NCBI GenBank assembly: GCA_949287655.1
Contig: CASEHD010000011.1
Span: 1-64,000, forward strand
Direction: 5' to 3'
Source of the DNA: an uncultured Christensenella sp.
Lineage (GTDB): Bacteria; Bacillota; Clostridia; Christensenellales; UBA3700
DNA: 64,000 nt
The notes under the pieces are model-generated. The model searched no databases and had not been told where the DNA came from. It saw nothing but the letters and a program-made list of their open reading frames with translations. Every line of letters starts with the position of its first letter. The stretch's first letter is position 1. The position numbers and the translations under genes are program-made. Shown piece after piece: positions 7,232 to 50,246 of this stretch.

Positions 7232-7260
7232 TTGACAGCCGCATTTTTTGCGTTTATCAT
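7232..7260 (+). promoter_or_regulatory. promoter of the surface locus, first unit
   Basis: TTGACA (7232-7237), 17-base spacer, TATCAT (7255-7260). The 13 bases GTATTGACAGCCG around the -35 box are repeated exactly at the promoter near 17980, which drives the giant-protein unit. Confidence 0.75.
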
Positions 7261-7314
7261 AACAGTATAAGGCGAAAGATTTCGCGTTGTGTGGTAAGGA
7301 GGCAGAATCGCCGT

Positions 7315-8001
7315 ATGGGGAAAGCGGCTACCGTCAAAAAACCCGTTTCGTATTGTTACACGCCCTATTTCGGCGCGGACGGTAAGACGGAATTTATCGA
7401 AGTATGGCAGGTGCTCGAAGACGAAGTGCTCGGCGTTTTGTATCCGTGGCAGTACGTACCGGCGGCACAGACCAGTTCCCGTATCGAAACTCTCAACTTC
7501 TTAGCTCTCGCACAATTCGAAGAGGACGCCGCGAAATATCCGGACGTCGGTTTTATATACAAGGTAAGCAGCAGGTTGCTCGCTGAAGGTAACGTGCACC
7601 GCCTGGCAGGATGTTTAAAGGATAACCTTATTCTTTGTTTCGACATCTTTCAGCTGGAAGCGTTCGGCGACAGAAACAGCCGCCTGGGGCTCAACTTTCT
7701 GAAAAAGAGGGGAGCCCGCATAATGGTAGAGGGCATTGAACGCGCCCCGATGGACGTAATAGCGAAATATCAGCCGGAATATTTTCTGCTGGATTACCGC
7801 TATTACAATCAAAGCAATTTTTCCCTTCTTTCGATATTCGCGAATCTCGCGGGTCAGAAGGGCATAAAACTCGTCCTGGGCAACGCGGTCAATAAAAACA
7901 ATATTGAGCTTTTTGAAAAAGAAGGGGTAAAGATCATCGGCGGCAGCGCTTATGCGAAACCCAAAAAGAGGCTTGAAACCCTGCTGGGCAAGGCTGATTA
8001 A
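7315..8001 (+). CDS. degenerate EAL-domain protein
   Basis: A 228-residue cytoplasmic protein that follows the EAL (c-di-GMP phosphodiesterase) fold along its whole length. EFIEVWQVLEDE and YPWQYVPAAQTSSRIETLNF match the N-terminal EAL region, IYKVSSRLL matches the 'NVSARQL' strand, and the end GGSAYAKP matches the usual QGY-x-x-KP. The catalytic positions appear lost: the DDFG loop, the lysine of KID (here LLDY) and the glutamate of AEGVE (here LGNAVN) are all replaced. It is therefore probably not a hydrolase; a c-di-GMP receptor or scaffold role is inference. The ATG at 7315 follows AAGGAGG (7296-7302); an upstream GTG at 7291 overlaps that region and is less likely. It begins the first transcription unit of the surface locus, 78 bases before a CalY-like gene. 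Confidence 0.7.
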   Translation: MGKAATVKKPVSYCYTPYFGADGKTEFIEVWQVLEDEVLGVLYPWQYVPAAQTSSRIETLNFLALAQFEEDAAKYPDVGFIYKVSSRLLAEGNVHRLAGCLKDNLILCFDIFQLEAFGDRNSRLGLNFLKKRGARIMVEGIERAPMDVIAKYQPEYFLLDYRYYNQSNFSLLSIFANLAGQKGIKLVLGNAVNKNNIELFEKEGVKIIGGSAYAKPKKRLETLLGKAD

Positions 8002-8079
8002 TAAGTACTAAGCGCCGCAAGGCGTGACATATGGGCAAATAAAAAATATTAAATCCAAAAAGATAAGGAGAGAGAAATT

Positions 8080-9054
8080 ATGAAAAAGAGTTTGGTAATC
8101 ACAACAATAGCTACCGTGCTCGTGATCGTCGTTGCTCTGACCACCGCGACTTTCGCATGGTTCTCTACGAGTGACAGCACGACTGCTTCAGGTAACTTTA
8201 CAGTAAGTACCGGCGGTGGTGACTTCCGTATTTATACATACAGCACCACCAGCGGACAGTACACGGTAGATCCTGTTTACATGCTGGATATTACTTCCTA
8301 CGGCGGCGAGTACAACTTTGCACAAGGGGCAATGGGCGGAACTTTGACGGATACCAAGATCAATCCGACTATGCCTATCGGTCAGCTTGACGGAATTTTG
8401 GCAAACACTCAGGGAGGCGGTCTCAGCGCGGTAAACTTCATGGCAGGAAACCAGTTGCCCTCCTCGGTCAACGTCACAAGCATTACGTCAAAGCCCGTAT
8501 ATGCTAAATTCCTGCTCGATACCAGCCTTGCTGACACACAGCTGGATATCACCGTAAAACTCAGCAACTCTTCCCCGACAAGAAATATGATCAACGCGAT
8601 CAACAACCTCAATTTCATGTTGGTAGGTAAGAGCGCTGAAGATACTGCCGATACTAAGAGTTTCGTTTTCGGTACGACTTATTCTTATTACGATGACGGC
8701 GCGTACGATACCGCCGATACGACATTGGCAGTAGGTCAGATTAATCAGACAGAATACGACGCAGAAGTAGCTTCAGAGTCTGTTGCCAATTATGCTACGA
8801 GAGTATTGAGCGGCGTTACCAACGTTGTTACTAAAGATATCAAAACCGATCTTGAAGGCATAAGTCTTGCGACCTTCCAGACAGGAAACGCAGGCACTCA
8901 AAACAGCATTTCCTTTAAGTCGGGAGCTATCGATATGGAACTCGGTACGGAAATCGAATGCGTACTGTTTGTCTGGTTCGACGGCAATGTGATGACAGAA
9001 AGTGCAAGTGACGGCAACTTTACGTTTGAAATTTCCTTCGCAGAAGTAGTCTGA
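8080..9054 (+). CDS. SipW-type (camelysin/TasA-like) exported protein
   Basis: A 324-residue exported protein. The N-terminus has a short basic head, a 20-residue hydrophobic core and TFAWFS at the predicted cleavage region, the hallmark of SipW-dependent substrates such as TasA and CalY. The mature part is Thr/Ser/Asp/Gly-rich with predicted beta strands and lacks cysteine pairs, LPXTG or a C-terminal anchor. It ends with a strand containing ECVLFVWFDG and FTFEISF, like the 9308 product, as expected for a beta-sandwich fibre subunit. It has a GGAGAG ribosome site and a strong terminator at 9083-9112. Role as fibre or matrix subunit is inferred from the signal type and from the two SipW genes nearby; I could not assign it firmly to Peptidase_M73. 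Confidence 0.75.
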   Translation: MKKSLVITTIATVLVIVVALTTATFAWFSTSDSTTASGNFTVSTGGGDFRIYTYSTTSGQYTVDPVYMLDITSYGGEYNFAQGAMGGTLTDTKINPTMPIGQLDGILANTQGGGLSAVNFMAGNQLPSSVNVTSITSKPVYAKFLLDTSLADTQLDITVKLSNSSPTRNMINAINNLNFMLVGKSAEDTADTKSFVFGTTYSYYDDGAYDTADTTLAVGQINQTEYDAEVASESVANYATRVLSGVTNVVTKDIKTDLEGISLATFQTGNAGTQNSISFKSGAIDMELGTEIECVLFVWFDGNVMTESASDGNFTFEISFAEVV

Positions 9055-9082
9055 TCGATTTTTCGGAAAATTCGGATTTAAG

Positions 9083-9112
9083 ACCTCACCCCGAAAACGG
9101 GGTGGGGTTTTT
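9083..9112 (+). terminator. intrinsic terminator after the first CalY-like gene
   Basis: A 10-bp stem (CCTCACCCCG with CGGGGTGGGG) around a short A-rich loop, then five T. Two weaker stem-plus-T elements follow at about 9116-9135 and 9155-9179, so read-through into the next unit should be low. Confidence 0.92.
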
Positions 9113-9190
9113 GCGCGCCTGAAAAGGCGTTTTTTGAAAAAAACTACCGTTTTCAGCGCAATTTTTGCGCTTAATTTTTTGTTTTTGCTA

Positions 9191-9219
9191 TTGACACGGC
9201 TAAATTATTATAATATAAT
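9191..9219 (+). promoter_or_regulatory. sigma-A promoter of the ATPase/SipW unit
   Basis: TTGACA (9191-9196), 17-base spacer, TATAAT (9214-9219): full consensus. The 5' leader of about 80 bases has complementary ends (TATGCGAC at 9227-9234 with GTCGCATA at 9290-9297), which could close a long hairpin just upstream of the start codon. It contains GGGCAAAC, but I could not fit it to the c-di-GMP-I riboswitch consensus. Confidence 0.85.
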
Positions 9220-9307
9220 ATTTATATATGCGACTGTGCGCGTACGGGCAAACGCTTATACACGCGCAGGGGCGAGGCATATATCGTACGTCGCATAAGG
9301 TAAGGGA

Positions 9308-10138
9308 ATGGGAAGAGAGTTTACTAAGTCCAAGCAGGACGAGATCATTAAAAATCAGAAGATCAGGGCGGCAAGCAAACGGCGTACCGCCACGACCGTC
9401 ATAACCATTTTCCTTTTGTGCGCTCTTTTGCTTACCGGCGCGGTCTGGGGCACCATTGCCTTTATCGACGCCAACAGCATGAGGATTGTCGTCGACAAAA
9501 GCAACGTCGGCGATATCTCGATAAGCAAGACGGCAGACTTTTCTTCTCCCGCGACCGTGCTTAAAATGAACGGACCCGAAGAGATGTCGAACATTACTTA
9601 CGACTGGATATTGAAGGACGAACTTTTCGGCAAAGAGGGGGACCACCACGGCGACAACTATATCGCATACAGCTTTTTTATCAAAAACGTCAGCGACAGC
9701 GACATTTTGTATAAAGGCTCCATCGTGCTCAACTACGTTTCCAAGGATATCGAAAGGGCGGTCAGGATAGTAATTATCGAGGACGAGGAAAAAGCGACCT
9801 GTTACGCGGTCACGAGGTCGGACGGCTCGCCCGAATATATCGCTTACGACAGCGACGACAAGGCGACTCAACAGCCGCTACCTCTCGGCGACAGCCGGCT
9901 GGACGAACTTCTCGGCTCCAACGTTACTACGCCCTTTTTGTCCGACGAGCCCAAGGACAGCAACGTAGAGGTATTTGAGTCTGAAGATATCTTCCTCGCT
10001 GTGGGAGAGGTGAAAAAATATACCGTGCTGATATGGCTGGAAGGGTCTGACAGCGACTGCATGGACGCCATAATCGGCGCAAAGGTCAATTTTGAATACA
10101 ACTTCCGCGTCACTCAGGTGGACGCGATAAAACCGTAA
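9308..10138 (+). CDS. membrane-anchored exported protein, CalY-like in part
   Basis: A 276-residue protein: about 27 cytoplasmic residues rich in Lys/Arg, one hydrophobic segment (about residues 28-52, ending GTIAFIDANS), then about 220 extracellular residues rich in Asp and Ser. The segment FFIKNVSDSDILYKGSIVLNY resembles the immunoglobulin-like strands of TasA/CalY-type proteins. LIWLEGSDSD near the C-terminus parallels the LFVWFDG strand of the 8080 product. The long basic head and lack of a TFAWF-type cleavage site suggest it stays anchored, perhaps as a base or accessory subunit. It is the first gene of the unit and is followed after 15 bases by the AAA+ ATPase gene. Function unknown. 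Confidence 0.65.
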   Translation: MGREFTKSKQDEIIKNQKIRAASKRRTATTVITIFLLCALLLTGAVWGTIAFIDANSMRIVVDKSNVGDISISKTADFSSPATVLKMNGPEEMSNITYDWILKDELFGKEGDHHGDNYIAYSFFIKNVSDSDILYKGSIVLNYVSKDIERAVRIVIIEDEEKATCYAVTRSDGSPEYIAYDSDDKATQQPLPLGDSRLDELLGSNVTTPFLSDEPKDSNVEVFESEDIFLAVGEVKKYTVLIWLEGSDSDCMDAIIGAKVNFEYNFRVTQVDAIKP

Positions 10139-10153
10139 GATGAGGGGAAATCT

Positions 10154-11689
10154 ATGGACAACATGTTAAATTTCATCAAGGCTTTTTTGGGGGTGCTCTG
10201 GGGAGGAGTGTCACAGATATTCGTCGGCATTTTCGGCGGTATCTTTCAGATGTTCAATTTCCCGGCGTACTATGACGCTTTCTGGGTCAACGCCAACGGC
10301 TGGGGCGCGGGCGAATGGATACTCGCGATACTTATCGCGATCCTTGTCGTCGCGATCCTCGCCGCGCTGGTCTGGGTCGTCGTATGGTTTACGATAAGGC
10401 TGGTCAAGAGGTTTAAAAAACCCGTTATCAACCAGGACCTTCTCGACGAGATCCACAACCTCAAAAAGCAGATCTTAAAGCTTACGCAGGAAAAAGACAG
10501 AATACTCAGAATGAAGGTCACCGGCGCGGAAGGCGACGCGTTCCTCGAAGGGCTCGAAACGGAAGAGGGCGAGGAAGAAGGCAAAGAGGAAAGCAAGCTC
10601 AAAGAGGGCGAAAGCCGTTTCTTTAAACTTACCGAAGTCGACCAGATATATGAAAACTACACGCCGCCCGTATACGACAACGAGATCACTCTTTCGGAGA
10701 TATGCGACCGCTTCCGCAATTTCGCGGCGAGCAGGCTGCGCTTATACTACGAACCGCGCATTATCCGCCTGTTCTGGGCGGGCATGTCGACGACCAGACT
10801 CCTTATCCTGCAAGGTATCTCCGGTACAGGTAAGACCTCTCTTGCGTACGCTACGGGTCAGTTCCTCGACAACCCTGCGACGATCGCTTCAGTCCAGCCG
10901 TCCTGGCGTGACCGTACAGAACTTTTCGGTTACTTCAACGAATTTACAAAGCGTTTCAACGAGACCGAAGTTTTGAAAAAAATGTACGAGGCGACCTGGA
11001 ACGAAAATATTTACATAACCGTCCTCGACGAAATGAATATCGCGCGTGTCGAGTACTACTTTGCGGAAATGCTTTCGATCCTCGAAATGCCGTCCCGCGA
11101 CAACTGGATCGTCGACCTCGTCCCCAGCGGCTGGCCCAGCGACCCCAAACACGTGGTGAAAGGCAGATTTACCCTGCCGCAGAATATGTGGTTTATCGGC
11201 ACCGCGAACAACGACGACTCTACCTTCGCGATATCGGATAAGGTCTATGACCGCGCTATCCCGATCAATATCAATACCAAAGGCGTACCGTTCGACGCGC
11301 CGGATACGGATAAGCTCTACGTTTCGTTTAAGCACGTTGAGGAGATGTTCAAGGTCGCGCAGGAAGAACACAAGGTCTCGCAGGAGATCATCGATAAGAT
11401 AAACACCCTCGACGATTACGTCATTGAACATTTCAGGCTCGCGTTCGGTAACCGTATCGTCAAACAGCTCAAAGAGTTCGTCCCCGCGTACGTCGCCTGC
11501 GGCGGCACTGAGATCGACGGTATCGACTATGTGCTGTGCAATAAGATACTCAGAAAGTTTGAATCGCTCAACCTCGGCTTTATCCGCGACGAGATAGACG
11601 GTCTGTGCGATTACCTTTCTGAACTCTTCGGCGAGGAAAATATGGGAGAGAGCAAAGAGTACCTGCAAAGGCTCAAAAAGCTGTTCTAA
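10154..11689 (+). CDS. membrane-anchored McrB-like AAA+ ATPase
   Basis: A 511-residue ATPase. N-terminal hydrophobic segments (about residues 4-34, and a clear transmembrane helix at 53-82) are followed by a basic stop, a short coiled coil (LKKQILKLTQEKD), an acidic Glu-rich linker (about 130-155) and a C-terminal AAA+ domain. Walker A is GISGTGKTS (near 221), Walker B is VLDEMN (near 291), sensor 1 is GTANND (near 349) and an arginine-finger candidate is VYDRA. The block WRDRTELFGYFNEF and the order of motifs are typical of the McrB/MoxR AAA clade, although the McrB MNxxDR signature is replaced by ANNDDS. The cytoplasmic location of the ATPase domain is inferred from the positive-inside rule. 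McrB-clade ATPases usually work with a DUF2357/McrC partner, and one is encoded 1.6 kb downstream (13314). Confidence 0.8.
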   Translation: MDNMLNFIKAFLGVLWGGVSQIFVGIFGGIFQMFNFPAYYDAFWVNANGWGAGEWILAILIAILVVAILAALVWVVVWFTIRLVKRFKKPVINQDLLDEIHNLKKQILKLTQEKDRILRMKVTGAEGDAFLEGLETEEGEEEGKEESKLKEGESRFFKLTEVDQIYENYTPPVYDNEITLSEICDRFRNFAASRLRLYYEPRIIRLFWAGMSTTRLLILQGISGTGKTSLAYATGQFLDNPATIASVQPSWRDRTELFGYFNEFTKRFNETEVLKKMYEATWNENIYITVLDEMNIARVEYYFAEMLSILEMPSRDNWIVDLVPSGWPSDPKHVVKGRFTLPQNMWFIGTANNDDSTFAISDKVYDRAIPININTKGVPFDAPDTDKLYVSFKHVEEMFKVAQEEHKVSQEIIDKINTLDDYVIEHFRLAFGNRIVKQLKEFVPAYVACGGTEIDGIDYVLCNKILRKFESLNLGFIRDEIDGLCDYLSELFGEENMGESKEYLQRLKKLF

Positions 11690-11962
11690 GCCACGGGGCG
11701 GTCGTGGGACGGTCGCGGGGCGACTGCCGGGTCGGCTGACGCGACCACGGGGTGGTCTGCCAAGTCGGCTGACGCGAAGCGGTACAGGTAACAATAAGCG
11801 ACAGCGACTAATGTTGCGGTCACACCCGGTCGCGGGGCGACTGCCGGGTCGGCTGACGCTAAGCAAAGAAGATACGCAAAGCGTAAAAAAGTTACAATAC
11901 GCGACAGCGATCAATGATGCGGTCACACCGCTGCTCCCCGTCACACGGGGAAAGGAGAAAAT
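11690..11962. repeat. duplicated spacer with 32-bp direct repeat
   Basis: A 32-base sequence (beginning GGTCGCGGGGCGACTGCC) occurs exactly at 11711-11742 and 11828-11859, 117 bases apart; its 3' core GTCGGCTGACGC occurs a third time near 11764. The sequences after each copy are also related (GCGACAGCGACTAATG at about 11799 versus GCGACAGCGATCAATG at about 11905), so the whole unit of about 117 bases is a tandem duplication. It separates the ATPase gene from the SipW gene and has no T-rich terminator. Confidence 0.8.
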
Positions 11963-13279
11963 ATGTCAAAGAAAAACACCGACGAAAAACCGATGAGTAA
12001 GGGCAAGAAAGCGCTTAACATTGCGCTTATCGTCTTCGAGATCGCGATAGTTATTGTCGCGATAGCGTTTTCGATATCCATATTGTTATCGACCGGGTAT
12101 GAAAGCAACAGCGATTTTGGCGAATCGTCGATAAGGCTTATGCCGGTATTGACTGACAGTATGGCGGGCGACAAGGAAGACAGCTTTGAGGCGGGAGACC
12201 TTATAATCGTCAAAAGCGCCGAAAAAGTCGACCTTTCCACGCTCGAAGTCGGCGATATAGTCACTTATCTGGATTATGTAGGCGGCGACCTTCAATTCGT
12301 CACCCACCGTATAATCGACATTGAGGAAAGCGAGATGTCCGACGGCGGCGTGATCAGAGAATACACGACGATGGGCGACGCAGAAGACCCTGAGACCGCG
12401 ATCACGAAAAAGCTTTACGCGGGCGACATTAAAGGCGTTTACGTCGGCAAGCTGGCGGGCGTGGGCAACGCGGTGTTCTGGCTTCAGGATCCGACGCATT
12501 TCTTCCTGGTGATAATGCTGCCGCTGATACTTCTTTTGCTGTACAACGCGTACCTCGTCGTGCGTATAATCATAGAAGCCAAACTCAAAAAACAGCGCGA
12601 GCAGCTTATCGGCGCGACCGCGGACGGCGCGGCGAAACCGCTTGACGAAGAAGAGATAAAACGCCTCGCCATAGAAGAATATATTAAGAAAAAAGCGGTA
12701 GAGGATTATATAAAAGAGCAGGAACTCAACGCGGCAAAGACCGGGGAGACCCCGGAAGCAGCAGCGGTAACCGCGCCCGTCGCTTCCGAAGCAGAAAAGG
12801 CAGAAACCGCGGAAGAGAAGACCGAACAGGTCGAACAAACGTCGGATAATGTCGAACAAGCGTCGGATAATGTCGAACAAACGACGGAAAATGCCGAAAA
12901 AGAGACTGTGAATGTCGAACAAGAGGTGGAAAAGGTCGAAAAAGCGTCGGATAATGTCGAACAAACGTCGGAAAATGTCGAAAAAGAGACTGAAAAAGTC
13001 GAACAAGAGGCGGAAAAGGTCGAAAAAGCAGAGAAAAAGCCCGCGGCTAAGCCGGCGGCGAAGAAGAGCGCAAAGACCGCGACCGAGACCGGCGCGAAAA
13101 CCGCGGCTAAACCGGCGGCTAAGTCAACGTCCGGGGCTGCGGCGGCGAAGAAGAGCGCAAAGACCGCAAAGTCAGAAGGCGGCGCGGCAAAAAAGACTGC
13201 CGCTAAGTCGGCGGCGACCAAAACCGGCGCGGCAAAGACGACCAAAACCGCCGCGAAAAAGACTGATAAAAAGAGCTGA
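11963..13279 (+). CDS. SipW-like signal peptidase with charged heptad and histone-like tail
   Basis: A 438-residue type I signal peptidase of the ER/SipW class. A transmembrane helix (about 18-43) leads to an extracellular catalytic domain with Ser66 (LTDSM), His115 (VTHR) and Asp139 (TMGD), the Ser-His-Asp arrangement of this class. A second helix (about 180-203) returns to the cytoplasm. Family members usually end near here, at about 190-220 residues. This one has about 235 more cytoplasmic residues: a helix EEEIKRLAIEEYIKKK (228-243), about ten heptads of the type EQTSDNV (286-358), then a Lys/Ala/Pro-rich stretch to the end (PAAKKSAKTA-like) resembling histone H1 tails. It probably cleaves the CalY-like proteins of this locus. 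The tail may bind a partner or nucleic acid; this is inference. The start follows AAAGGAG. Confidence 0.82.
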   Translation: MSKKNTDEKPMSKGKKALNIALIVFEIAIVIVAIAFSISILLSTGYESNSDFGESSIRLMPVLTDSMAGDKEDSFEAGDLIIVKSAEKVDLSTLEVGDIVTYLDYVGGDLQFVTHRIIDIEESEMSDGGVIREYTTMGDAEDPETAITKKLYAGDIKGVYVGKLAGVGNAVFWLQDPTHFFLVIMLPLILLLLYNAYLVVRIIIEAKLKKQREQLIGATADGAAKPLDEEEIKRLAIEEYIKKKAVEDYIKEQELNAAKTGETPEAAAVTAPVASEAEKAETAEEKTEQVEQTSDNVEQASDNVEQTTENAEKETVNVEQEVEKVEKASDNVEQTSENVEKETEKVEQEAEKVEKAEKKPAAKPAAKKSAKTATETGAKTAAKPAAKSTSGAAAAKKSAKTAKSEGGAAKKTAAKSAATKTGAAKTTKTAAKKTDKKS

Positions 13280-13313
13280 ATGTTTCCGCTTTTTGCGGTA
13301 AAGGCAGGGGAAT

Positions 13314-15152
13314 ATGGACGACAGACAGAAATTTGACTCATACGTCGAAAAAATAAACGCGATGCTGCGCTCGGACGAATTTTACCAGACGTTCAAGCGC
13401 AGACTGCGCGCGTCTAAACCGCAGCTTAAACTCGCAAAAAAAAGCAGAACGAAACAGTTTGAAACAGATTGGATAGATATGATAGAGTCGTGCATAACCA
13501 ACCTCGACAATATCGTAAGAAACCCCAGAAAATTCATCGTTATAGAAGAAGACATCGTCGATATCTCGCTGGCGCGCGCGATCTCTACAGAATCGGTCAA
13601 GCACCTCGCGCAGCATACCAATATGATCGCCAGCGTCGACAAAGAGGGCAACGTCACCCCCAACAAAATACTGAATACGACTAAGGAAGAGAGTTTCGAG
13701 ATATACGAAAACAGGTTTATTTACACCCTTTTAAAAAACCTGTCCAACTTTATTTCCCGCCGTATGGACGCGATAAAAAAGGCGTACGTCAACGATAATA
13801 TATTAGAGCTGGACGTCGACGCCAATTTCTATATGGGCAAGACCCGCGTGTTCTACAACTTAGAGCTGATCGGCTCAGTGCCGTCCGACGTTGAAGAGGA
13901 GTTGCAGGGCTCCGACCTCAAGATAGTAGAACGCGTCACAAAGCTGCAACGCATCATCTCCGACTTTTTGTCCTCGCCGTTCGCGAAGCAGATGATAAAC
14001 AGCGCGCCCGTACGTCCGCCAATCACGCGTACAAACGTAATACTCAAAAACCCCGACTTCAAAAAGGCGCTTGTGCTGTGGCAGTTTATCGAAAGCTACT
14101 CAAAGATGGGCTTTTCCGTCGAAAACGTAAGCGAAAAGATGGACGTGGACGAGGGCGTTGAGACTGCCGTCGGCGATATGATGTTCATATGCAATTCGCT
14201 GATGGAAGGGTTGGTCAAAGCAAAGGTCGACGACGCGCTCTTCTTCGACGAATCCAATATGACAGAAGAGGAGACGAAAGAAGAGGAAAAAGAGGCAGAG
14301 AAAGAGAGCGAAAAAGAGGAACAGGAAGAAACGCCGGCGCCCGAAGCGGTCGAAACTCCTTCTCCGGAAGAAACGGAAGAGCGGGAAACTCAGCCCGAAG
14401 AAGAGAAAAAGGAAGAGGAAGAAGAGGAAGAACTTCCCGACGAATTCGGCGTTGCGGAACTCAGAAACCTGTTCCAGCAGACGGAAGGAAAGGTCGACAG
14501 GAAGCAGATCGCGCGTATCAACAAGGCGATCGACCGCGTACTCTTGAACGAGAGCACGGCGCGCGCAAAGAAGAAATCGGACGTCGCGCAGATACAGTTC
14601 CGTCAGAACGAGATAGAAAAAGAAAAGATGCTAAAAGAGATGGAAAAGGAAAAACTCGCGTTGGAGCGTTCTCTCGCAAAGAAAGAGAAGATCGCGGCAA
14701 AAGAGCGCGAGTCGCTTGAAAAACAGCGTGAACGCGATAAGCGCCGCCTTGAAAAACTCGAAGAGCAGATGAGAGAGAAGAGGGAAGAGGCGAGCGAAGC
14801 CGCGGCGGAAGAAGAACCGCGAGAGGACCTCGGCGAGGTCGAGGACCTTTCGGTAATGCCGATGCTTACCGCGCTTAAAGAAGAGAATGAGGAAGGCGCA
14901 CCGGCAACCGACAGCGCTGATAAAGTCGAAGAGCCCGCCGCAAAAGAGCCTGCAAAAGACGCCGCCGAAGGTGAAGGAGAAACGCCGGAGGAAGCTGTGA
15001 CGGATATCGCGGCAAGCGCGGGAGAAACGCCCGCAACGGATGTCGCGGATAAGGCAGAAGAACCCGCCGCCAATCCTGCGGCGGACGGAGAGGGAGAAGC
15101 CGCGCCCGGTACAGACAAGCCGGAAGGCGCGGGCGACGGACCGACCGACTGA
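13314..15152 (+). CDS. DUF2357-like (McrC-associated) protein with acidic and coiled-coil tail
   Basis: A 612-residue cytoplasmic protein without signal peptide. The first ~310 residues resemble the DUF2357 domain found with McrB-type ATPases; the diagnostic segment is FEIYENRFIYTLLKNL. In known members a PD-(D/E)XK nuclease follows. Here the sequence passes instead into a Glu-rich acidic stretch (about 318-370), a short helical segment, a long coiled coil of Glu/Lys/Arg (about 416-496) and an Ala/Glu/Pro tail with two copies of PATDxADKxEEPAA. I see no nuclease motif outside low-complexity sequence. It begins 34 bases after the first SipW gene and ends one base before the ATG of the second, so it is embedded in the export operon. 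A structural or adaptor role with the AAA+ ATPase is inferred. Confidence 0.65.
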   Translation: MDDRQKFDSYVEKINAMLRSDEFYQTFKRRLRASKPQLKLAKKSRTKQFETDWIDMIESCITNLDNIVRNPRKFIVIEEDIVDISLARAISTESVKHLAQHTNMIASVDKEGNVTPNKILNTTKEESFEIYENRFIYTLLKNLSNFISRRMDAIKKAYVNDNILELDVDANFYMGKTRVFYNLELIGSVPSDVEEELQGSDLKIVERVTKLQRIISDFLSSPFAKQMINSAPVRPPITRTNVILKNPDFKKALVLWQFIESYSKMGFSVENVSEKMDVDEGVETAVGDMMFICNSLMEGLVKAKVDDALFFDESNMTEEETKEEEKEAEKESEKEEQEETPAPEAVETPSPEETEERETQPEEEKKEEEEEEELPDEFGVAELRNLFQQTEGKVDRKQIARINKAIDRVLLNESTARAKKKSDVAQIQFRQNEIEKEKMLKEMEKEKLALERSLAKKEKIAAKERESLEKQRERDKRRLEKLEEQMREKREEASEAAAEEEPREDLGEVEDLSVMPMLTALKEENEEGAPATDSADKVEEPAAKEPAKDAAEGEGETPEEAVTDIAASAGETPATDVADKAEEPAANPAADGEGEAAPGTDKPEGAGDGPTD

Positions 15153-15153
15153 A

Positions 15154-15909
15154 ATGGAAAAGGCTGAAAAGAAAAAGAAAATCTCCGTGCCCGTGTTGAT
15201 TACAAACATATTTGTAACGGCGCTGTTCCTGTTTGTTTTCGCATGTCTGCTCACGGTGACGATACAATATTTTACGGGTAAAGAGCCTACGCTTTTCGGG
15301 TACCGTTCTTTCGTCGTCGTGACTGAGAGTATGACCGGGACTTACGATAAGGGCGACGTTATCCTCGTCAAAGCGACGGACGGCGAAAAGCTCGCGGGCG
15401 ATCCGTCCGCGCTGAAAGAAGGCGACGTAGTGACCTTTACCGCTCCCGAAGGTTTCGGCGCGGTGGAAGGGTACACCGTAACGCACAGAATAGTAAAAGC
15501 TCCGTACAAGGGCGAAGACGGAAGATATTATATCCGTACGAAGGGCGACGCGGCAGAGATTGCCGACGAGACTCCCGTGCCCGTCGAAAACGTGACCGGC
15601 ATAGTCGTCGGAAAGAGCGAAGCCCTCGCGGGATTGCAAAGCGTGCTGAGAAGCAAGACGGGATTTCTGCTTATAATCGTCGTGCCCCTTGTCGCGATAG
15701 CGCTGTGGCAGATCGCGGTATTTGCGGTCGCCGGAGCAAAGAGCAGAAAAAAGGCTGCCGAAGGCGATACCGGCGGGAAAGAGCCGCCCGGAAAGCCGGA
15801 AGAGAGCGGCGAAAACGCTTTCAGCGAATCCGAGATAGAAGAAATAAAGAAAAAAGCGATAGAAGAATACGTTAAAAACAAAGACGGCGGACAGGACGGC
15901 AAGGACTGA
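15154..15909 (+). CDS. second SipW-like signal peptidase
   Basis: A 251-residue membrane protease of the SipW/ER class. The helix at about 11-38 is followed by the catalytic domain with Ser59 (VTESM), His111 (VTHR) and Asp132 (TKGD), then a second helix (170-193) and a short cytoplasmic tail. The tail contains EIEEIKKKAIEEYVKNK, closely related to the EEIKRLAIEEYIKKK helix in the tail of the first SipW, which points to a shared docking partner. I chose MEKAEKKKK as start; it lies one base after the upstream stop codon, so translation is probably coupled. A start further upstream in the same frame would lie inside the previous gene. Two peptidases in one operon may divide the substrates between them. 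Confidence 0.85.
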   Translation: MEKAEKKKKISVPVLITNIFVTALFLFVFACLLTVTIQYFTGKEPTLFGYRSFVVVTESMTGTYDKGDVILVKATDGEKLAGDPSALKEGDVVTFTAPEGFGAVEGYTVTHRIVKAPYKGEDGRYYIRTKGDAAEIADETPVPVENVTGIVVGKSEALAGLQSVLRSKTGFLLIIVVPLVAIALWQIAVFAVAGAKSRKKAAEGDTGGKEPPGKPEESGENAFSESEIEEIKKKAIEEYVKNKDGGQDGKD

Positions 15910-15943
15910 TCCGTTAAAAGGGGAAAGCGAAAGTCCGGGAATT

Positions 15944-16795
15944 ATGAAAAGCGCAAAAGTTTTAACGCCTATACTCGTTCTCGTGCTGGTGTTCTGTATG
16001 CTGGCGCTGACTTTCGCATGGTTTTCCGCCGACACTCAAACGCAGACGACCGCCGTGTTACAGGCGGGCAGTTACATCAAAGTCGTCTTCGGCGAAGACG
16101 GCGACCTTCTGGTCAGCGAACCTTACAACGGGCAGAAGGGATACGACGACGGCGGGGTCGCTTATACAGACGCGGACAAGGCGTATCAGGCGTTTTACCA
16201 TACGACTTTGCGTTTGCAGGGCGACAACGACCTGAGACTGAGAATGGAATTCACGTCGCTGCGTATAAAAGTCTCCGACACCTTCTATATGATGAACGCG
16301 GAAAGGACTCTCGGCGAGATAATCGCGAAATTCGACGGCTACGACCCCGGAAAGTCGCACGTCGGAAAGGTCGAGACGGTGACTACCGAAAACGGAGAAG
16401 AAGAGAAATTCACCGCGCCGGCGGACGGCAGCGCCGCGTTTTTATATACCGACGACGGCACGCTTGACGGCAAGGTGAAATATATCAGCCTCGACAAGGC
16501 GAATACCGACAAATTCTTCGCGCTCGCTTACGCTAAGATAACGAATACTACTTCGCCGTACGCTTACGGCACTTTCGTAGCGGAGGGAGGCGCGCTGGAA
16601 TTCGTCCACGGTCCCAATCTGCCGGCAGGAGGCAGCGAGGTCGTGTCCGACTACACTTACGGCAAAGCCAATCCGATATGCGTAAGGATAACTTATTCGG
16701 ACGAAGCATACGCAAAGACTTTCCCGTTCAGCGGCGACAGTTTCAAGGCTTCGCAGTTCAGGTTTGAGATAGTCGCGGCGGCGGATTACGCGTGA
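15944..16795 (+). CDS. SipW-type (camelysin-like) exported protein
   Basis: A 283-residue exported protein with a short basic head, a hydrophobic core and ALTFAWFS at the cleavage region, the same signal type as the 8080 product. The mature part is acidic and Gly/Asp/Thr-rich with alternating strand-like segments (LRMEFTSLRIKVS, FALAYAKITNTTS, FRFEIVAAADYA). No LPXTG motif or C-terminal helix is present. It lies 35 bases after the second SipW gene, so it is probably its substrate and may be a fibre or matrix subunit. I could not identify a specific family. Confidence 0.72.
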   Translation: MKSAKVLTPILVLVLVFCMLALTFAWFSADTQTQTTAVLQAGSYIKVVFGEDGDLLVSEPYNGQKGYDDGGVAYTDADKAYQAFYHTTLRLQGDNDLRLRMEFTSLRIKVSDTFYMMNAERTLGEIIAKFDGYDPGKSHVGKVETVTTENGEEEKFTAPADGSAAFLYTDDGTLDGKVKYISLDKANTDKFFALAYAKITNTTSPYAYGTFVAEGGALEFVHGPNLPAGGSEVVSDYTYGKANPICVRITYSDEAYAKTFPFSGDSFKASQFRFEIVAAADYA

Positions 16796-16924
16796 CAAGC
16801 CGCGGGCTCAGCCGTATGTTGCGGCGAAAAATATAAGCGAGACGCGGCGGCGAGCGCGGCGCGGAACATGCTTAAACATTATTGAGAATACGCCCGTATA
16901 CGGGTAAAAACAAGGAAGCGGATA

Positions 16925-17575
16925 ATGAAAGGTCAGTTCACAAGGCTTATTATATTCATGACGGTATGCGTGCTGCTCGTCGCGGGCGTCACGGCGGCGA
17001 CCTATGCCGTCTGGACGACCTCGGACGGCGGCTCTACCCCCGCGACCACGCAGACGGGCGAATGGGAAGACCCGTCTTACAGATACCTCGTGCTCGAAGT
17101 TTTGTTTGCGGACGGCTCTTCCTCGCTTGCGGAATATGCGGTCACGGACGGCGAAGGCGCGGATTTTTCCGCTTTCGACGTCGGACAGGCGGGCGCGGAT
17201 AACGCGGTAAGCGCGACCGTTGTCGGGTACACGGGAATATTGACGACGCTTAAAATCCCGCCCTCGGTCACGGTCAGAGACGACGGCGGAAATACGAAAG
17301 AGATATCCGTCACCGCGATAGCTACCGGCACGGTAGAGCAGTACGACGGATTAAGACTTATAGAAGAACTGGAAATTCCGGCGACCGTCGCGACTATCGG
17401 GGACTTTTCGTTTATGTTCTGCGACAGCTTGAAAAAGGTGACTTTCGTTTCGGGCGGCGGCGCGCTTACAATGGGAAATATGTGTTTTTACCGCTGCGTA
17501 AAGCTCGATTATCCTTCCGCAGTCGACTTCGGCGGCAGAAGCGTTACGCAGGGGGACGACTGCTTCGCAAAATAG
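16925..17575 (+). CDS. SipW-type exported protein with partial BspA-like leucine-rich repeats
   Basis: A 216-residue exported protein. The N-terminus has a hydrophobic segment ending in ATYAVWTTSDGG, a variant of the SipW-type signal. The region from about residue 130 matches BspA-type (LRR_5) repeats: LEIPATVATIGDFSFMFCDS, then a second turn NMCFYRCVKL. The protein stops abruptly during a third turn (QGDDCFAK). BspA-like repeats usually run for many turns and end with a cap, so this is either a naturally short protein or the remnant of a longer one; the 475 bases downstream hold no matching repeats in any frame I checked. It ends the ATPase/SipW unit. A role in binding host or matrix ligands is possible but unproven. 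Confidence 0.65.
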   Translation: MKGQFTRLIIFMTVCVLLVAGVTAATYAVWTTSDGGSTPATTQTGEWEDPSYRYLVLEVLFADGSSSLAEYAVTDGEGADFSAFDVGQAGADNAVSATVVGYTGILTTLKIPPSVTVRDDGGNTKEISVTAIATGTVEQYDGLRLIEELEIPATVATIGDFSFMFCDSLKKVTFVSGGGALTMGNMCFYRCVKLDYPSAVDFGGRSVTQGDDCFAK

Positions 17576-17979
17576 AGAAAGGGCGCGGACGCGGGATTAT
17601 GCGCAAATCCGCCTCTTAAGACCGGATAAACGCGGCGCGGAAAACCAAAAACCCGATACTTATCCGCAATTTTACGTTGAGAATATTTTTTTCGGCTGCC
17701 GGGCGCGCCGCGCGCAAAATGCCGGCTGCCGCTTTTTTATCCGCTTGAAACGCAAAAATATCGCATTTTATACCGCGGCGGTCGGCGCTTTCGGTTTGAC
17801 CTCGCCGCCGGTCGGGGGCGCCGTTTCCGCGCGGAGGTATTTTCACGCGCCCCCGGTTTAAGCGAGATTCAAATGCTCCGAAAGAGACTGTTTTTCTTTT
17901 TGCATAAGCGTTTTAAGCCGAAAACCGACTGCCGTATTGTAAATTTTTTATTAAAAATGTAAAATATCATTATCGGGTA
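17576..17979. other. gene-free spacer before the giant-protein unit
   Basis: About 400 bases with no credible gene. It is GC-rich with a 9-bp hairpin at 17813-17821/17847-17855 (CGGGGGCGC with GCGCCCCCG) that lacks a T-run, then AT-rich before the promoter. The 12-mer AGCCGAAAACCG at 17916-17927 is also present at 7155-7166, upstream of the other promoter that shares GTATTGACAGCCG. Confidence 0.6.
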
Positions 17980-18008
17980 TTGACAGCCGGGTTTCTTAGT
18001 TATATTAT
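17980..18008 (+). promoter_or_regulatory. promoter of the giant-protein unit
   Basis: TTGACA (17980-17985), 17-base spacer, TATTAT (18003-18008), about 43 bases before the first gene. It shares GTATTGACAGCCG with the promoter at 7232, which suggests co-regulation of the two units. Confidence 0.78.
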
Positions 18009-18050
18009 TATATATATAAATAAAGTCAAGACAAGGTCGGATAAGGGGAT

Positions 18051-18656
18051 ATGAAAAAAAAGACTGTCGTCACAGCTGTTATTTTCGTCATTCTTATCGC
18101 GCTGGTGGGCATCGGCGCGGCGTTTGCGTTTTTTTCCAACGAAAGCGATTCCTCTTATCTTACCGTAGACTCCAACGATCAATTCAGTATAAGCATAGGT
18201 ATCGGCGAGACCCAGGGTCAACTGGTGCCTGTAAAGGCGGTCAACGACAATACCGCGGCAGGTAATATCTCCGATTCGGACGGCGTAAGGATAGACGTGC
18301 CTTACGTTATCGGCGAGGCGGAAGAAGGCGTCACCGCGATGAAGGTCGTCGTCTATGCGTCCGGCGCGGTATGGCGCGGCGCGGACGGAGAGGAGCTTCC
18401 GGAAGAGATACAGGCTTATATGCAGGGAAAGCTGGACCTTTGTCTGTACGACGCGGACGCTCTCGGCGAGGGGGAGCAGCCTTCTTACAACTGGAGCAAC
18501 GCTTCCGCGGTCTTTAATTTTACGGACCCTACGGCGGGCGCAACGGGTACTCTTCAACTGGCGATAAGGTTCAACGTTACAGACGAGCTTCTGCCGGAAG
18601 AAATAATGAATTCCACCGTCACCGTAAGCGTGACTTCGGAGTTCGTCAGAACATAA
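18051..18656 (+). CDS. SipW-type (camelysin-like) exported protein
   Basis: A 201-residue exported protein: basic head MKKK, hydrophobic core and GAAFAFFSNES, the SipW-type cleavage region. The mature domain of about 170 residues is acidic, with NDQFSISIGIGETQG and the C-terminal strands LQLAIRFNVTDELLP and VTVSVTSEFVRT, which fit a TasA/CalY-like beta sandwich. It directly precedes the giant gene (120 bases, with a hairpin ACGGGTC/GACCCGT at 18682-18699 between them) and shares its promoter. It could be the subunit that assembles with, or exports alongside, the giant protein; this is inferred from position only. Confidence 0.72.
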   Translation: MKKKTVVTAVIFVILIALVGIGAAFAFFSNESDSSYLTVDSNDQFSISIGIGETQGQLVPVKAVNDNTAAGNISDSDGVRIDVPYVIGEAEEGVTAMKVVVYASGAVWRGADGEELPEEIQAYMQGKLDLCLYDADALGEGEQPSYNWSNASAVFNFTDPTAGATGTLQLAIRFNVTDELLPEEIMNSTVTVSVTSEFVRT

Positions 18657-18776: not shown

Positions 18777-21700
18777 ATGACAAACAATGCCGCAAAACGC
18801 AGAATATGGCTTACGGCGACGGCTGTTATTATAACGGTCGCGCTGTTGCTGTCGTGCGCTTTGGCGGCGTTTTTCTATACGCGCACGGGCGGTACGGGCG
18901 CGGGTACCGTCGCGGAAGGAGAGGGGGCGGATGAGATAAGCGCGACCCCGGTGTATTCTTACGGCAAACCTGCCGAAGAATATATAGGAGAGTATTATCC
19001 GATCACCAATTACAACGAACTTATAGGCTTCATCGGCGGTACGACAACGACTTTATCATACGGCAAGCTGATGAATAATATCACGATAGGAAGCGGAAGA
19101 GACTATACTCCTTCTACGGGACTTGTGCTTGCCGCAGGCAGAACTCTGGACGGCAACGGATTCACGATAGAAGCAAATCACGATCCTCATTCAAACCCGA
19201 TAAATGCAAGTTACAGCGGCAACGGAGCGACGGTCGGCTCTGACAAATCCACGATAAGCGACTGGTTTTCTTACGCCAAGAGGGGAAACGATTCTACCGC
19301 CACGGTTGCAGGCAATACCACCGTGGGCGTCAGCGATATAGTTGCGGTCAACTACGGCACTATCAAAAATCTGACCGTTACGGTTGGAGGCTCGGTTGAG
19401 AGAGTTTATATCGCTCCTGCAGACAACAACAACAACGTAAGCATGGGCGTCATCGCCGGAATAAACGCGGCGACGGGCGTGATAAGCAACTGCAAAGTCG
19501 AGGTCAATCAATACTACGGCTTTGTCGGCAGTTACTACTACGTACAGAGAATATACACCTGGATTCCTGCCGGATACAGGTTCGACAAAGGTGCTATTTC
19601 CACACAGGGTCTCGTCAGCGTGGGCGGCGTATCGGGATCAAACCTCGGCGTCATAGCGGACACGCAGGTCTCGATCAACAATAAGCTGGGCGCATTTAGA
19701 GAGTACATGAATTTCAGAGGAGAGGAAGTTCCCAACGATAGCATAGGCACGGGCGCGGTTGGCGGCGTGACGGGTATAAACGACGGAGGCACGATAAGCG
19801 GAATTGATCTCAATATTTCTGCTAACGGTAGGGTGAACAACGACTCGTGGCATACTTCGACAAGCTATACCGGAGGGATAGTCGGACTTGCAAATCTGAC
19901 GTCTTCCACTCAGACTTTCGACGTGAACGGCAGCGGTAAGTCGGTCAAGGCAGGCAAGGTACAGAACATATCTCTCAATATCGACAGTTCTGCGGCTGCG
20001 GTATCGGAAGCGCATTATTATAGCGGCGGCAGGAACGACTCGGGTTCTATCAATTCTGATTCTTACGCCGCTACCGGGAATTGGACGGGAGTTATAACGG
20101 GCATGGCGGCGACCGAAGGTTCCGAGCTCGCGCAAGGCATAAACGTATACGATTCCACATACGCTAGCCGCGGTTATTTCAGAAATTATGCTGCGTCCGA
20201 ACTCAACACGACGCTTGCTTTTTCCAGCTCGGATATGCCGCTCCTCGGCAAAGGCAGCAGTATCAAAGCGTCTGTAAACCACTTTACGTTCAATGCGTAT
20301 CTCGCCGGCGCGACGGCATACGGGAACACTGCGACGGCAGCGGAACTTCTCGGCAGTAATTACAGTTGGGTGTGGAATACGAAAATAAGCGGTAATACCG
20401 TGCAATCGGGTCTTCTCGTAAACATGGACGTAAATACCGCATATTCCTCAACGCTCGAAGGCAACGTCCCGATTTTTTACAGGACTTACGCTCTCAACAA
20501 CGGCGTGCAGATTTATGAAGAAACAGCCGATTCGTCCGCGACCGACGGTCTTAATTACGCCGCTTGGCTTTTGGTTGATCCTGAATATTCTTCCTATAAC
20601 ATATACAGCGAATACAAATTGGTGAATTTCGTAAGCGCAACGTCGCTGAACAGATTCACCGCTGAAAATCCTTCCGGGAACGAAGGATATGCTTACGCGC
20701 ATAAAGTTTACCTGACCCAGGCGTTCACTCTCGACAACTCCGTAAATGCCGCGCGCGTTCTGCAAAATTGGAAAACCATAGACGGCGGACTCAATCAGAT
20801 CACCGTAACGGGTCTTAACAATACCGCGGTCAGCGTCGACGGAATAAACGCTTTAAGCGATTTTATAGCGGTAAACAGAGGTACGATAGTAAATCTCAGC
20901 ATAGCTTATTCGGTCGCGCGCGGCGCGATCTCCGCGAGCGGCGATACCGCGTACGGTTTCGTCGCCGGCGTGAACTACGGCACGATAGCTCCCGCGACTA
21001 TATCGACAAGCGCGGTTGAGCTTTCCGGCAACAGTCCGACGTCTCTGCTTTATCTGGGCGGCGCGGTCGGTTACAACTGCGGAAGCATGTCGGGCATAAC
21101 TCAGACCGTGGCGGGGAATATGACGATATCCGGCAGCGCGAAACAGGCGTTCCTCGGCGGCGTTATCGGCGTGAATACCGGCGCGGGCGCTTTGCAGACG
21201 GCGGTGCTGAACGGCAGTTACGACGCGACGGTGCAGGCGACGGCGGGGTCGACTTACGGCAACTACGTCGGCGGCTTTATCGGCGCGGGCGTAAACAGCG
21301 GATCGGTTTCCACGCAGGGCAACGTTCTGACCCTTACCCAGACGCAGGAGGATCCTTTCGGCGACTGGCTGTATGCGGGTAAGCAGAGAATTCAGCCTGA
21401 TGAAAATTCGTATACGGGTCTGTTTGCGGGACTTATCACATCAAGTCCGTCTTATAACGCTGTCTCCAATCCTTACATAAACGGTCTCGTCGCGGCTGCG
21501 CCCGATCTTGACGAAGCGGTCGGTTGGTTCAGTCCTGTAAAGGGAGTTATGACCCTTGCGGGTTACGCGGCAGGTACTACGGGCGCAAGCGGAAAGTATG
21601 TGGCTTCCGATCTCATAAGAGGTCAGGTCTATACGGTTCAGGACGCGTCCGACGCTTTCGTTTCAAAGATCCTTACTGACGTCTACTGGGCGCCGACGAC

Positions 21701-24700
21701 AAATATTTACAGATTTACAGTCACAAGCCGTGCGTACAACACCAACTGGGCGCTTACGCCTTACGACTCCGGTTATCGGAATTTCGTGAATTACGGCTCG
21801 CCGTTGAATTCCGGCGAAACATTTGATACGGCGTGGACTTACGAAAACAACAACAACGGCAGTTACGCTTATACTTTCGACGCGGGACTTTACGTGCAGA
21901 ACAACGACGCGTCGTCCAACCCCGACTATCTCGCGCCCGTAGTGGGCGTTGAACTGATATACAGAATGAACCTGCAAAGCGGTGTGTCCGCAGGCGATAC
22001 GACCAACGCGGACGACGCGCTGACCCTTTTCCTGAGCGGAGAGTCCGCGGGATTCGAACATATGAATCCGAACAACGGATATAAGGCTTTGTGCGCGGGC
22101 GCGAGCGGCGCGTACGGCGACAACAGCGGCGACCCGTGGATGGTGAACGGAGGCAGGAACATCGTGTTCGACAAGCCTTACGGACTCGACGGCAGTCACA
22201 ACGGAGGAATGTCGGTAAGCATTACCGGCGACGCGACCTCTTACGCGCAGGTATGGGACGAAGAAAGTCAGAGTTACGTTGCCGCGGAATTCATCGCGGT
22301 CAACAACTCGTCGATAAACGCTCTCAAAGTCACCGTAAACGGAAACAAGACTTATTCGTCGGCGGACGGACTTGTATATTCGCATCTCGTCGGCGTAAAC
22401 AACGGCACGATCTCGACGTGTACGGTTACGGTAAACGGCAACGTTTCGCTTTCGACTGCCGGGGCGGCGGTCTACGGCTCGCTGGTCGGCATAAACAACG
22501 GCACGGTATCTACGTCGTCCGCGACTTTGAGCGGCAGCGTCGGCATATCGGGCGGCGGAATAAGCTATGCGGGCGGCGCGGTCGGTATCAACAGGGGAGT
22601 TGCGGACGGTACGGTCGTCAATTTCGACGGCGGCGCGATTTCTCTTACCAATTCGGGCGGCGTTTTTGCGGCGCTGGGCGGCGTTATCGGTTTGCAGGAT
22701 TCCGCAAGCCTTTCCGACGTGCAGGCGGCGGGCTACGGCGCGACGCTTACGGTCGGGAACCTCGGCGCGGCGGGCGGCGTTATCGGCGCGGCCAACGCCG
22801 GAAGCAACGGTACGGCGGTCGTTGCCGGCATGGTCAGCGCGGCGCAGACGACGCTTGCAAATATTTCCAACGCCGTTTACGGAATGGAACTCAACGCGGA
22901 CAGCGGATACAAAGGACTGATCGCGGGATCGCTGGGCGAAAGTTCCGTAAGAGACGGCGCGCTTTCCGGCGTTGCGGCGTTCTATCCGGACGAGGTAGCG
23001 GCTTACGCGGTGCCGTGGACGACGACCGCGACCGGTGCGATCTCAATGTACGGTTACGGCAGCGAGGATCCTCTCGAAGGCATACTCTTCAAGATAAGCG
23101 ATTACAGCGACGACGGAGGCGCGGAGTATCTGACCGACCGCACTATAAGCGTAAACGGCGCGGCTAAGTCGTTCACGTTCGACATATCTCAGATAGCGGG
23201 GCTTACGGCTTCGTCGCTGACCTTTGCCGCGAAATATTATTATTATGATTCCGAAGGCGCGCTGACTAACGACGCGACTTATACGGGCGTTCCTTCTCTC
23301 GGCGGCGCCGTCTGCACGACGGCGATAAACGGGACTTACGCAAACAGCGCTTCTTACGTTCCGACTCTCGACGTGCTGATAGATTATGCGGTCACGCTGA
23401 ATAACGGCGAAAATCAGCAGCTCGTCGACTTTATGAGGGGGGCGAGCGACGCAGGATTTGATTCTTACGCGGGTGCGAGAAAGGCGAATATAGTCGCTTC
23501 CGCGGCGTTTACTCTTGACTCAAACACCGCCGCGCTGCGCGGCACGACGTCGGGTAAGGGTAAAGAGCTGTCGGGACAGGGTAACACGATCAATATTTCG
23601 GGCACGCTTCCGACCGCGACTTACGACGGCGAGACCGTCGCCGGCGGCTTCTTCGCGGTGAATAAGGTGAAGATATCGGGCGTAAGCGTCGCGACGACCT
23701 CAGATCTGCGCCCGAGCGGTTATGCGTTCGGTCTGCTTGCCGGAGTAAACGAAGGAGAGCTGACCGACGTAGAGGCAAGCTTTACGCAGAGCTTAAACGC
23801 GAGCGTAAACGTCCTTGGCGGACTTATCGGTCTGAACAAAGGAATTATCGACGGCGCGACCGTCACTATGAACGGCGTAAGCGCGTCGTACGGCGACAAG
23901 ATCGCGTTCGGATCTGTCGCGGGCGTAAATACCGCGGCGGTATCTTCATCGACGGCGACGCTCGCCGGCACTTATACGCTGACTTCCGCAAGCATTTATT
24001 CGGGCGCGGCGATAGGCGAAAACAGCGCGTCGCTCAGCGACGTGACGGTCACGTTCGCAGACGCGGCTCTCACCGCCAACCCGACCTCTGCGGCTTATGC
24101 GGGCGGCGTGGTCGGCATGCAGAGCGGAGGGTCTCTTACCGACGTCGGTACGGCGGGCGGCTCGCTGAAAATGTCTGTCACTTCCGGCAGCGGTTACGTC
24201 GGCGGCATAGTCGGTATAATCAACACGGGCGCAGGCGAACAGACGGTGGCGGGGCAGAGCCTTTCCGCCTCGTCGATGAGCGGAGTTTACGCGGGCGTTT
24301 ACACTTCCGCGATATACGGAACGGTATTTAAAGGACTTATCGCCGGCGCGGTCGGCAGTATCGCGAGCGGCAGCATACAGGGCGCGACGGCGCACTATTA
24401 CGAAAACGGTTACACGCCGGGAGACTTCACGATCCCGTGGTTCGCTGCAGAAGAGGGAGTCGTCTCCATGTACGGCTTCAACGCTGCGAACGCGGATACG
24501 ACTTATGCGGTCGGCATGCTTTTCAAAATGAGCGATTACAGCGACGACGGCGCGGCGGATTTCGTGAAGGGCAGGACCCTTTCGGGCAGCGCGGGAGCGG
24601 CGCAGATCTATTTCCCGATCTCTGATTTCGGCGGAGCGAACGATCTGTCGATAGCGGTGAATTACGTCAGCTGGCAGGGCGGAGAAAAGAATGTAGCCGA

Positions 24701-50171: not shown

Positions 50172-50229
50172 GACGGTGAAAAACCGTCAAAAGTAAAAAG
50201 ACGGAAAGTTCCGTTGCCCCTGCGGGGGC
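50172..50229 (+). promoter_or_regulatory. structured leader with alternative pairings
   Basis: CCGTC (50184-50188) can pair with GACGG upstream (50172-50176) or with GACGG downstream (50200-50204). A second hairpin (ACGGAA/TTCCGT) and a third (GCCCC/GGGGGC, 50216-50229) follow, and the ribosome site AAGGAG comes just after. I could not match this to a known riboswitch. Confidence 0.4.
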
Positions 50230-50246
50230 GGCTAAGGAGTTTAGGT

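Follow-up and report, generated by a model that had tools for sequence, protein, structure and literature searches.

A CoCoPALM-type operon linking an McrB-clade ATPase and its DUF2357 partner to SipW signal peptidases in gut and rumen Clostridia

Introduction

The operon described here lies in a stretch of 64,000 nucleotides from an uncultured Christensenella sp. (contig CASEHD010000011.1), hereafter the window, and encodes an AAA+ ATPase of the McrB clade (gene 10154, genes being named by the window position at which they start), a DUF2357 protein (13314) and two SipW signal peptidases (11963 and 15154). The closest systems described so far are the CoCoPALMs, which were named in one paragraph, with no function given, by Bell, Makarova, Wolf and Koonin (2024; PMC11090510). 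In the main-text passages of that paper, the CoCoPALM NTPase is McrB-like, with an NxD motif often followed by D or E, and carries an N-terminal transmembrane (TM) segment, a coiled coil and an N-terminal domain homologous to FtsB; it is held to hydrolyse GTP rather than ATP. The same passages place a DUF2357 partner with a coiled coil and signal peptidase genes in the operon, and describe the systems as CoCoNuT-like. The 10154 system has the NxD motif followed by D, the TM segment and coiled coil, the coiled-coil DUF2357 partner and the signal peptidases in common with this description, and nothing in the published passages sets it apart in a way that excludes membership.

McrBC type IV restriction systems, as in Escherichia coli and Thermococcus gammatolerans, share with the 10154 system an AAA+ core and the McrC finger domain. 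Unlike them, the 10154 system has no detected DNA-reading domain, McrC scaffold or PD-(D/E)xK nuclease, is anchored in the membrane and is encoded in an export operon. CoCoNuT systems likewise hold an NxD-type McrB, coiled coils and DUF2357, but they carry a nuclease (HEPN, PD-(D/E)xK or other), whereas none was found in the 10154 system, which is tied to export instead. The tapA-sipW-tasA operon of Bacillus subtilis and related SipW fibre operons also set SipW peptidases beside substrates with aromatic cleavage sites; to the B. subtilis arrangement the 10154 operon adds an AAA+ ATPase, an McrC finger, a TM-anchored family (the 9308 family) and a long-tailed SipW. Recruitment of an McrB-family protein to a task in the cell envelope is known from PcdA of Staphylococcus aureus, although PcdA carries EVE domains, its NTPase motifs are degraded and it lacks an McrC partner (PMC10602043).

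The operon spanning 9308-17575 is thus of the CoCoPALM type: the kind of system was already known, and what is new is the evidence on its tie to SipW. A sequence-only reading of the locus had proposed a new use for the ATPase. The association of genes on which it drew cannot count as new, the CoCoPALMs having been named in 2024, while the suggested role in surface fibres has gained ground from a fusion of DUF2357 with SipW and from a motif in the SipW tails. The main text of Bell et al., in the passages on these systems, mentions neither the SipW identity of the peptidases nor TasA-like substrates, the 9308 family, an EAL protein, the fusion or the tail motif; its supplementary tables may hold some of these. 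The literature searched yielded no follow-up on CoCoPALM, no paper joining McrB and SipW in the sense of fibre export and none on the PADLOC candidate PDC-M26, nor has a function been published there for this kind of system, which many gut and rumen Clostridia carry.

Linkage of the ATPase to SipW

It is probable, in our view, that a CoCoPALM-type complex of ATPase and finger protein beneath the membrane, coupled to dedicated SipW peptidases, takes part in building TasA-like surface fibres. All members of the gene set that the sequence-only reading had assigned to one operon (McrB-clade ATPase, DUF2357, two SipW peptidases and SipW-type substrates) are present on the forward strand, in the order 9308 membrane protein, 10154 ATPase, SipW a (11963), DUF2357 (13314), SipW b (15154) and the substrates 15944 and 16925. 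The products of 11963 and 15154 are both SipW/archaeal-type signal peptidases, and they are the only two SipW matches in their own genome.

This arrangement is widely conserved. Of 297 genomes of the order, 86 encode the ATPase, and it matches at least 587 stretches in a species-level genome collection, in gut and rumen Clostridia, while no relative was found on viral contigs. Given that distribution, and the recurrence of the gene set in about 100 loci, the operon is not a chance assembly. The interleaving with export genes noted earlier from the window alone recurs in a neighbourhood survey of 107 distinct loci with a single ATPase, across which ATPase, DUF2357 and SipW co-occur. In 95 of the 96 loci with enough downstream sequence, DUF2357 follows the ATPase at a distance of no more than 3.5 kb, and all 71 with enough flank on both sides have a SipW gene on the same strand no further than 4 kb away (61 have it upstream, 39 downstream and 29 in both positions). 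Proximity by chance can be set aside, as about two SipW genes per 1.8 Mb genome would place one near the ATPase in about 1% of loci. At the level of genomes, SipW is present in 51/51 of the counted single-ATPase carriers against 142/297 of the order (Fisher's test 1e-19, kinship ignored). The usual order elsewhere is SipW-ATPase-DUF2357; in the genus of the window, unusually, SipW a stands between the ATPase and DUF2357.

Other export components travel with the module. Among 74 loci with at least 6 kb of upstream sequence, the 9308 family is near in 68, a TasA-like protein in 64 and the EAL protein in 53, counts that are approximate because the profiles of the two families, 9308 and TasA-like, overlap in sequence. 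In many genomes TasA-like proteins with the AWF site stand on both sides of the module.

A SipW tail motif and a fusion of DUF2357 with SipW

The SipW peptidases of the operon bear a motif in their cytoplasmic C-terminal tails, with the consensus EEIKRKAIEEYL (E-E-I-K-[RK]-[KR]-A-I-E-E-Y-L). In its strict form, A[IV]E[EKQ]Y[LIVK], the motif is present in 67/154 SipWs of these operons and in none of 40 SipWs encoded elsewhere (p 4e-9, kinship ignored); a looser form gives 100/154 against 3/40. The 40 controls (L198-L237) include paralogues from genomes that also carry the operon, and the motif is found in SipWs both upstream and downstream of the ATPase.

In Ruminococcus albus KH2T6 the two partners are joined outright: a single frame of 991 amino acids (locus L161, 11634-14609) holds DUF2357 at residues 26-294, a coiled coil, and SipW at residues 764-946, and the SipW domain retains its S-M and T-H-R sites. 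The relatives of KH2T6 (loci L172-L182) show both arrangements: fused frames of about 990-1009 amino acids and without internal stops occur in eight genomes of the genus, KH2T6 included, at 71-100% identity, and in other members of the genus DUF2357 is followed directly by a separate, adjacent SipW gene. In a sample of the class, one further genome has such a fused frame, of 1043 amino acids and interrupted by a single stop within the matched stretch. The genomes with the fusion appear to belong to a single clade, and one fusion event is probable. At the level of gene sequence, the fusion and the tail motif together tie the predicted cytoplasmic, McrBC-like machine to SipW.

The ATPase

The earlier assignment of 10154 to the McrB clade, with membrane helices at its N-terminus, is borne out by the profile and structure searches. 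Its product matches the NCBIfam McrB model (E 1e-7) and solved E. coli McrB structures (E 4e-7), with a match to Pfam AAA_5 slightly short of the cut-off (E 2e-4). A short hydrophobic stretch at about residue 10 and a long one at residues 47-84 are followed by a heptad-like, coiled-coil-like helix at residues 95-125, and Pfam found no DNA-reading domain, the N-terminus being made up of TM segments and coiled coil. FtsB/DivIC models were absent among the Pfam matches listed up to E 1 for 17 ATPase members.

The catalytic motifs are intact. Walker A (GISGTGKT) and Walker B (LDEMN) are complete in the 10154 product, and Walker A and Walker B, the latter as DE[MC]N, are kept in 107/107 loci. N352, D354 and D355 are invariant in 17 aligned sequences; the N-x-D-D site can be read as NxD or NxxD, and in an ungapped alignment D355 falls opposite the D of E. 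coli McrB.

The DUF2357 partner

As modelled, the 13314 product folds like the finger domain of McrC, and it has no detectable nuclease, a lack that the sequence-only reading had also noted. Pfam assigns it to DUF2357 (PF09823) at E 3.5e-10, over the curated cut-off, and the same family is matched by the N-terminal domains of 57/57 relatives, which rules out a coiled-coil artefact as the source of the likeness to McrC. A model of residues 1-312, built by AlphaFold2 with 57 sequences (mean predicted local distance difference test score, pLDDT, 85.7), was used in a fold search in which McrC chains took the first four ranks (Z 9.0, 8.4, 8.3 and 7.9), the best being 6ut5 (137 residues, 4.1 A), against Z 7.1 for the best unrelated fold. 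The T. gammatolerans McrC has its finger domain at residues 99-288 and its nuclease at 299-458, and the finger enters the McrB pore and stimulates hydrolysis (PMC7680126); the model matches residues 140-293, almost all within the finger domain, and leaves the nuclease unmatched.

The likeness to McrC rests on this comparison of folds, since a profile-profile comparison with E. coli McrC and a PDB sequence search both gave nothing; Foldseek alone is weak (best E 0.024). Nuclease families, PDDEXK included, were found neither in the partner nor among the families listed (25 of 37) for 54 full-length partners, and a Pfam scan of the ten genes from 7291 to 18656 likewise contained none. A search of the window's own genome with the PF04411 nuclease gave no match, but its controls also matched nowhere. 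Thus DUF2357 is matched by both sequence and fold, no nuclease was found and the gene set is conserved in relatives, so that the rewired McrBC module put forward from the window alone stands in its outline.

Proposed mechanism and alternatives

The survey establishes the linkage of these genes, and the mechanism is what we infer from it. An McrB-like AAA+ ring would be tethered beneath the cell membrane via its N-terminal helices. By analogy with McrBC, the DUF2357 finger would insert in the pore of the ring and stimulate hydrolysis one site at a time, while the finger protein, perhaps also the SipW tail, would hold SipW at the ring. Nucleotide cycles could then gate, time or power the step at which TM-anchored subunits are cleaved or passed on to a base, possibly the 9308 protein, and the degenerate EAL protein may add control by cyclic-di-GMP. 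The ATPase might in this manner drive assembly, quality control or release of the fibres, as had been suggested at the outset, and it is the DUF2357-SipW fusion and the tail motif that strengthen a use in fibre biogenesis. A narrower version, which we regard as possible and put forward tentatively, is a signal peptidase gated by nucleoside triphosphate (NTP): ring and finger would hold SipW via DUF2357 (covalently in Ruminococcus), perhaps via the AIEEYL tail, and hydrolysis would time or power the release of TasA-like subunits into the fibre.

Several observations weigh against a role in fibre making. The link between ATPase and fibre is drawn from gene arrangement and sequence, the fusion is confined to one clade, and the activating residue of McrC (Lys157 in E. 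coli) could not be mapped onto the partner: the invariant K245 was considered as its counterpart, but an ungapped profile scan did not differ from shuffled controls (p 0.7-0.9). For the subunits a TasA fold is weakly supported, the best comparisons of the 9308 ectodomain (Z 6-7) being level with unrelated jelly rolls. The TasA fibres of B. subtilis are not known to need such an ATPase. SipW is, moreover, absent near a sister class of loci with the tandem order ATPase-DUF2357-ATPase (L062, L063, L065, L066, L084, L089 and L090), and is hence not essential to the module.

The tandem loci adjoin genes for YDG/MBG, transglutaminase and BspA-type leucine-rich repeat (LRR) proteins and for GH3-Fn3-TM proteins of 1064-1274 amino acids (GH3 shown for L062 and L065). 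The C-terminus of the last is related to the ATPase; the GH3-containing proteins of 1100 amino acids were considered as a third ATPase and rejected, as they have no Walker motifs. In a third class the ATPase, of 550-640 amino acids (560-642 at loci L069-L077), has four to five TM segments and SipW is often present, and a fourth (L078-L081) has ATPases of 800-990 amino acids with a GTANRDES motif and a DUF2357 partner. In view of these variant classes, the association of the module with surface proteins is broader than its association with SipW. At some loci of the third class, genes for an ABC transporter follow.

Among the alternatives, a role in quality control would have the ring extract or clear stalled SipW precursors and misassembled subunits in the manner of FtsH, with fibre growth itself independent of the ring. 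A membrane-anchored AAA+ protein with a complete catalytic site, linked to SipW by fusion and tail motif, would suit such a task; we nevertheless consider it unlikely, as Pfam scans found no protease domain in the ATPase or the partner, and McrB-family rings are not known to unfold proteins.

Defence sited at the envelope appears improbable. On this account the McrBC-derived pair would still act against phage, as in CoCoNuT, but at the membrane, with phage sensed at the envelope and the surface genes serving as receptors or decoys. The ancestry of McrB and DUF2357 is compatible with it, as is the likening of CoCoPALMs to CoCoNuT in the text of Bell et al. (PMC11090510), and a further point that speaks for defence and against the fibre role is the match of the ATPase to the PADLOC candidate-defence model PDC-M26A, over part of the model (E 2e-36), a model that ATPases of other variants also match, L078 best among those tested. 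Yet neither the unit nor the partner yielded a nuclease or other effector, no PADLOC model is matched by the partner, and the neighbours in the mapped loci are surface and export genes, not defence genes. As the partner is fused in Ruminococcus to SipW, the peptidase that trims fibre subunits, the task of the motor is probably fibre assembly and not defence against phage.

A positioning scaffold, with an ATPase that has little or no activity as a switch and only places the export site in the cell, is very doubtful: the co-option of the McrB relative PcdA for S. aureus division sets a precedent, and coiled coils are present on ATPase and partner, but PcdA has degraded Walker motifs and lacks an McrC partner (PMC10602043), whereas here both Walker motifs are kept throughout, the N-x-D-D site is found in all aligned sequences and the activator is almost always present.

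If the fibre role holds, a defence motor has been turned into secretion machinery and provides a cytoplasmic source of energy for fibres of the SipW/TasA type; if the NTP-gated peptidase holds as well, donor-strand-type fibres of Gram-positive gut bacteria would have a cytoplasmic motor derived from restriction. With the fusion, the tail motif and R. albus as a cultured carrier, the question can be tested directly.

Substrates, neighbouring units and other features

The features of the locus are collected in Table 1.

Table 1. Genes and predicted signals of the CoCoPALM-type operon and its neighbouring units (window coordinates)
Feature	Position	Strand	Evidence
Promoter-like TTGACA-17-TATCAT for EAL/TasA-like pair	7232..7260	+	11/12 consensus; predicted
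Degenerate EAL-domain protein, neighbour unit conserved with operon	7291..8001	+	Pfam EAL E 5.6e-8
TasA-like SipW-type substrate (signal ..TTATFAWFS)	8080..9054	+	Alignment
Terminator-like hairpin, then T run	9087..9112 (about)	+	Sequence reading; absent from the scan's list
Promoter-like TTGACA-17-TATAAT before operon	9191..9219	+	12/12 consensus
Single-TM protein with beta-sandwich ectodomain and cytoplasmic tail, candidate base of the fibre	9308..10138	+	Relatives; AlphaFold2
McrB-clade AAA+ ATPase, membrane segments and coiled coil at the N-terminus, N352-x-D354-D355 motif	10154..11689	+	NCBIfam, PDB, alignment
SipW signal peptidase a, long cytoplasmic tail with DEEEIKRLAIEEYIK	11963..13279	+	NF046067 E 2.8e-12
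DUF2357 protein: McrC finger-like domain (residues about 45-265), acidic and coiled-coil tail, no nuclease detected	13314..15152	+	Pfam, AlphaFold2, fold search
SipW signal peptidase b, tail with IEEIKKKAIEEYVK	15154..15909	+	NF046067 E 1e-19; TIGR02228 above cut-off
SipW-type substrate (..LALTFAWFS)	15944..16795	+	Sequence
Surface protein, SipW-like signal (..AATYAVWTT), BspA-type LRR	16925..17575	+	Pfam LRR_5 E 1.6e-7
Promoter-like TTGACA-17-TATTAT of next unit	17980..18008	+	11/12 consensus
Small SipW-type substrate (..GAAFAFFS)	18051..18656	+	Sequence; TIGR04088 E 0.14, below cut-off
7445-aa surface protein, SipW-like signal (..ALAAFFYT)	18777..41114	+	Open reading frame; no Pfam family

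The 9308 product, a candidate for the base of the fibre, has no Pfam family. It has 86 close relatives and belongs to a widely conserved family with the motif W-L-E-G-x-D-x-x-C; the relatives examined keep the TM helix and cytoplasmic tail, and nearly all lack the AWF site. An AlphaFold2 model of the ectodomain is a beta sandwich (pLDDT 89.5) that matches archaeal bundling pili with a Foldseek probability of 0.93, resembles FimA and PapG pilin weakly, and is aligned with TasA (8aur) at Z 6.3, tied with unrelated jelly rolls. The TasA-like product of 8080 belongs to no Pfam or NCBIfam family, and A26, W27 and F28 are invariant in 30 such sequences aligned. SipW-type signals of the AWF/AFF form are carried by 8080, 15944 and 18051, with weaker forms in 16925 (AVW) and 18777 (AFFY); the match to the TIGR04088 model is weak. 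The catalytic EAL positions are not conserved among 71 homologues of the 7291 product, which may therefore, at a guess, bind rather than cleave cyclic-di-GMP.

The genes from 9308 to 17575 probably form one transcription unit, which is taken to extend that far since no promoter-like site of at least 10/12 lies on the forward strand between 10074 and 17980. The start of the unit at 9308 fits the full-consensus promoter-like site, which stands behind the hairpin and T run. The EAL protein and the TasA-like protein make up a separate upstream unit, and the small substrate and the surface protein of 7445 amino acids a third, downstream one. Every gene named by the sequence-only reading is present on the forward strand, most with a plausible ribosome-binding site on reading the sequence; for SipW b, the start at 15040 in the list of open reading frames is too early, and 15154, two bases past the DUF2357 stop, fits.

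The window's own genome is a Clostridia assembly of 1.94 Mb, with uncultured Christensenellaceae and Candidatus Ornithoclostridium as its nearest named relatives. Elsewhere in the window, 50214-55835 encodes a surface protein of 1873 amino acids with Listeria-Bacteroides repeats and BspA-type LRR.

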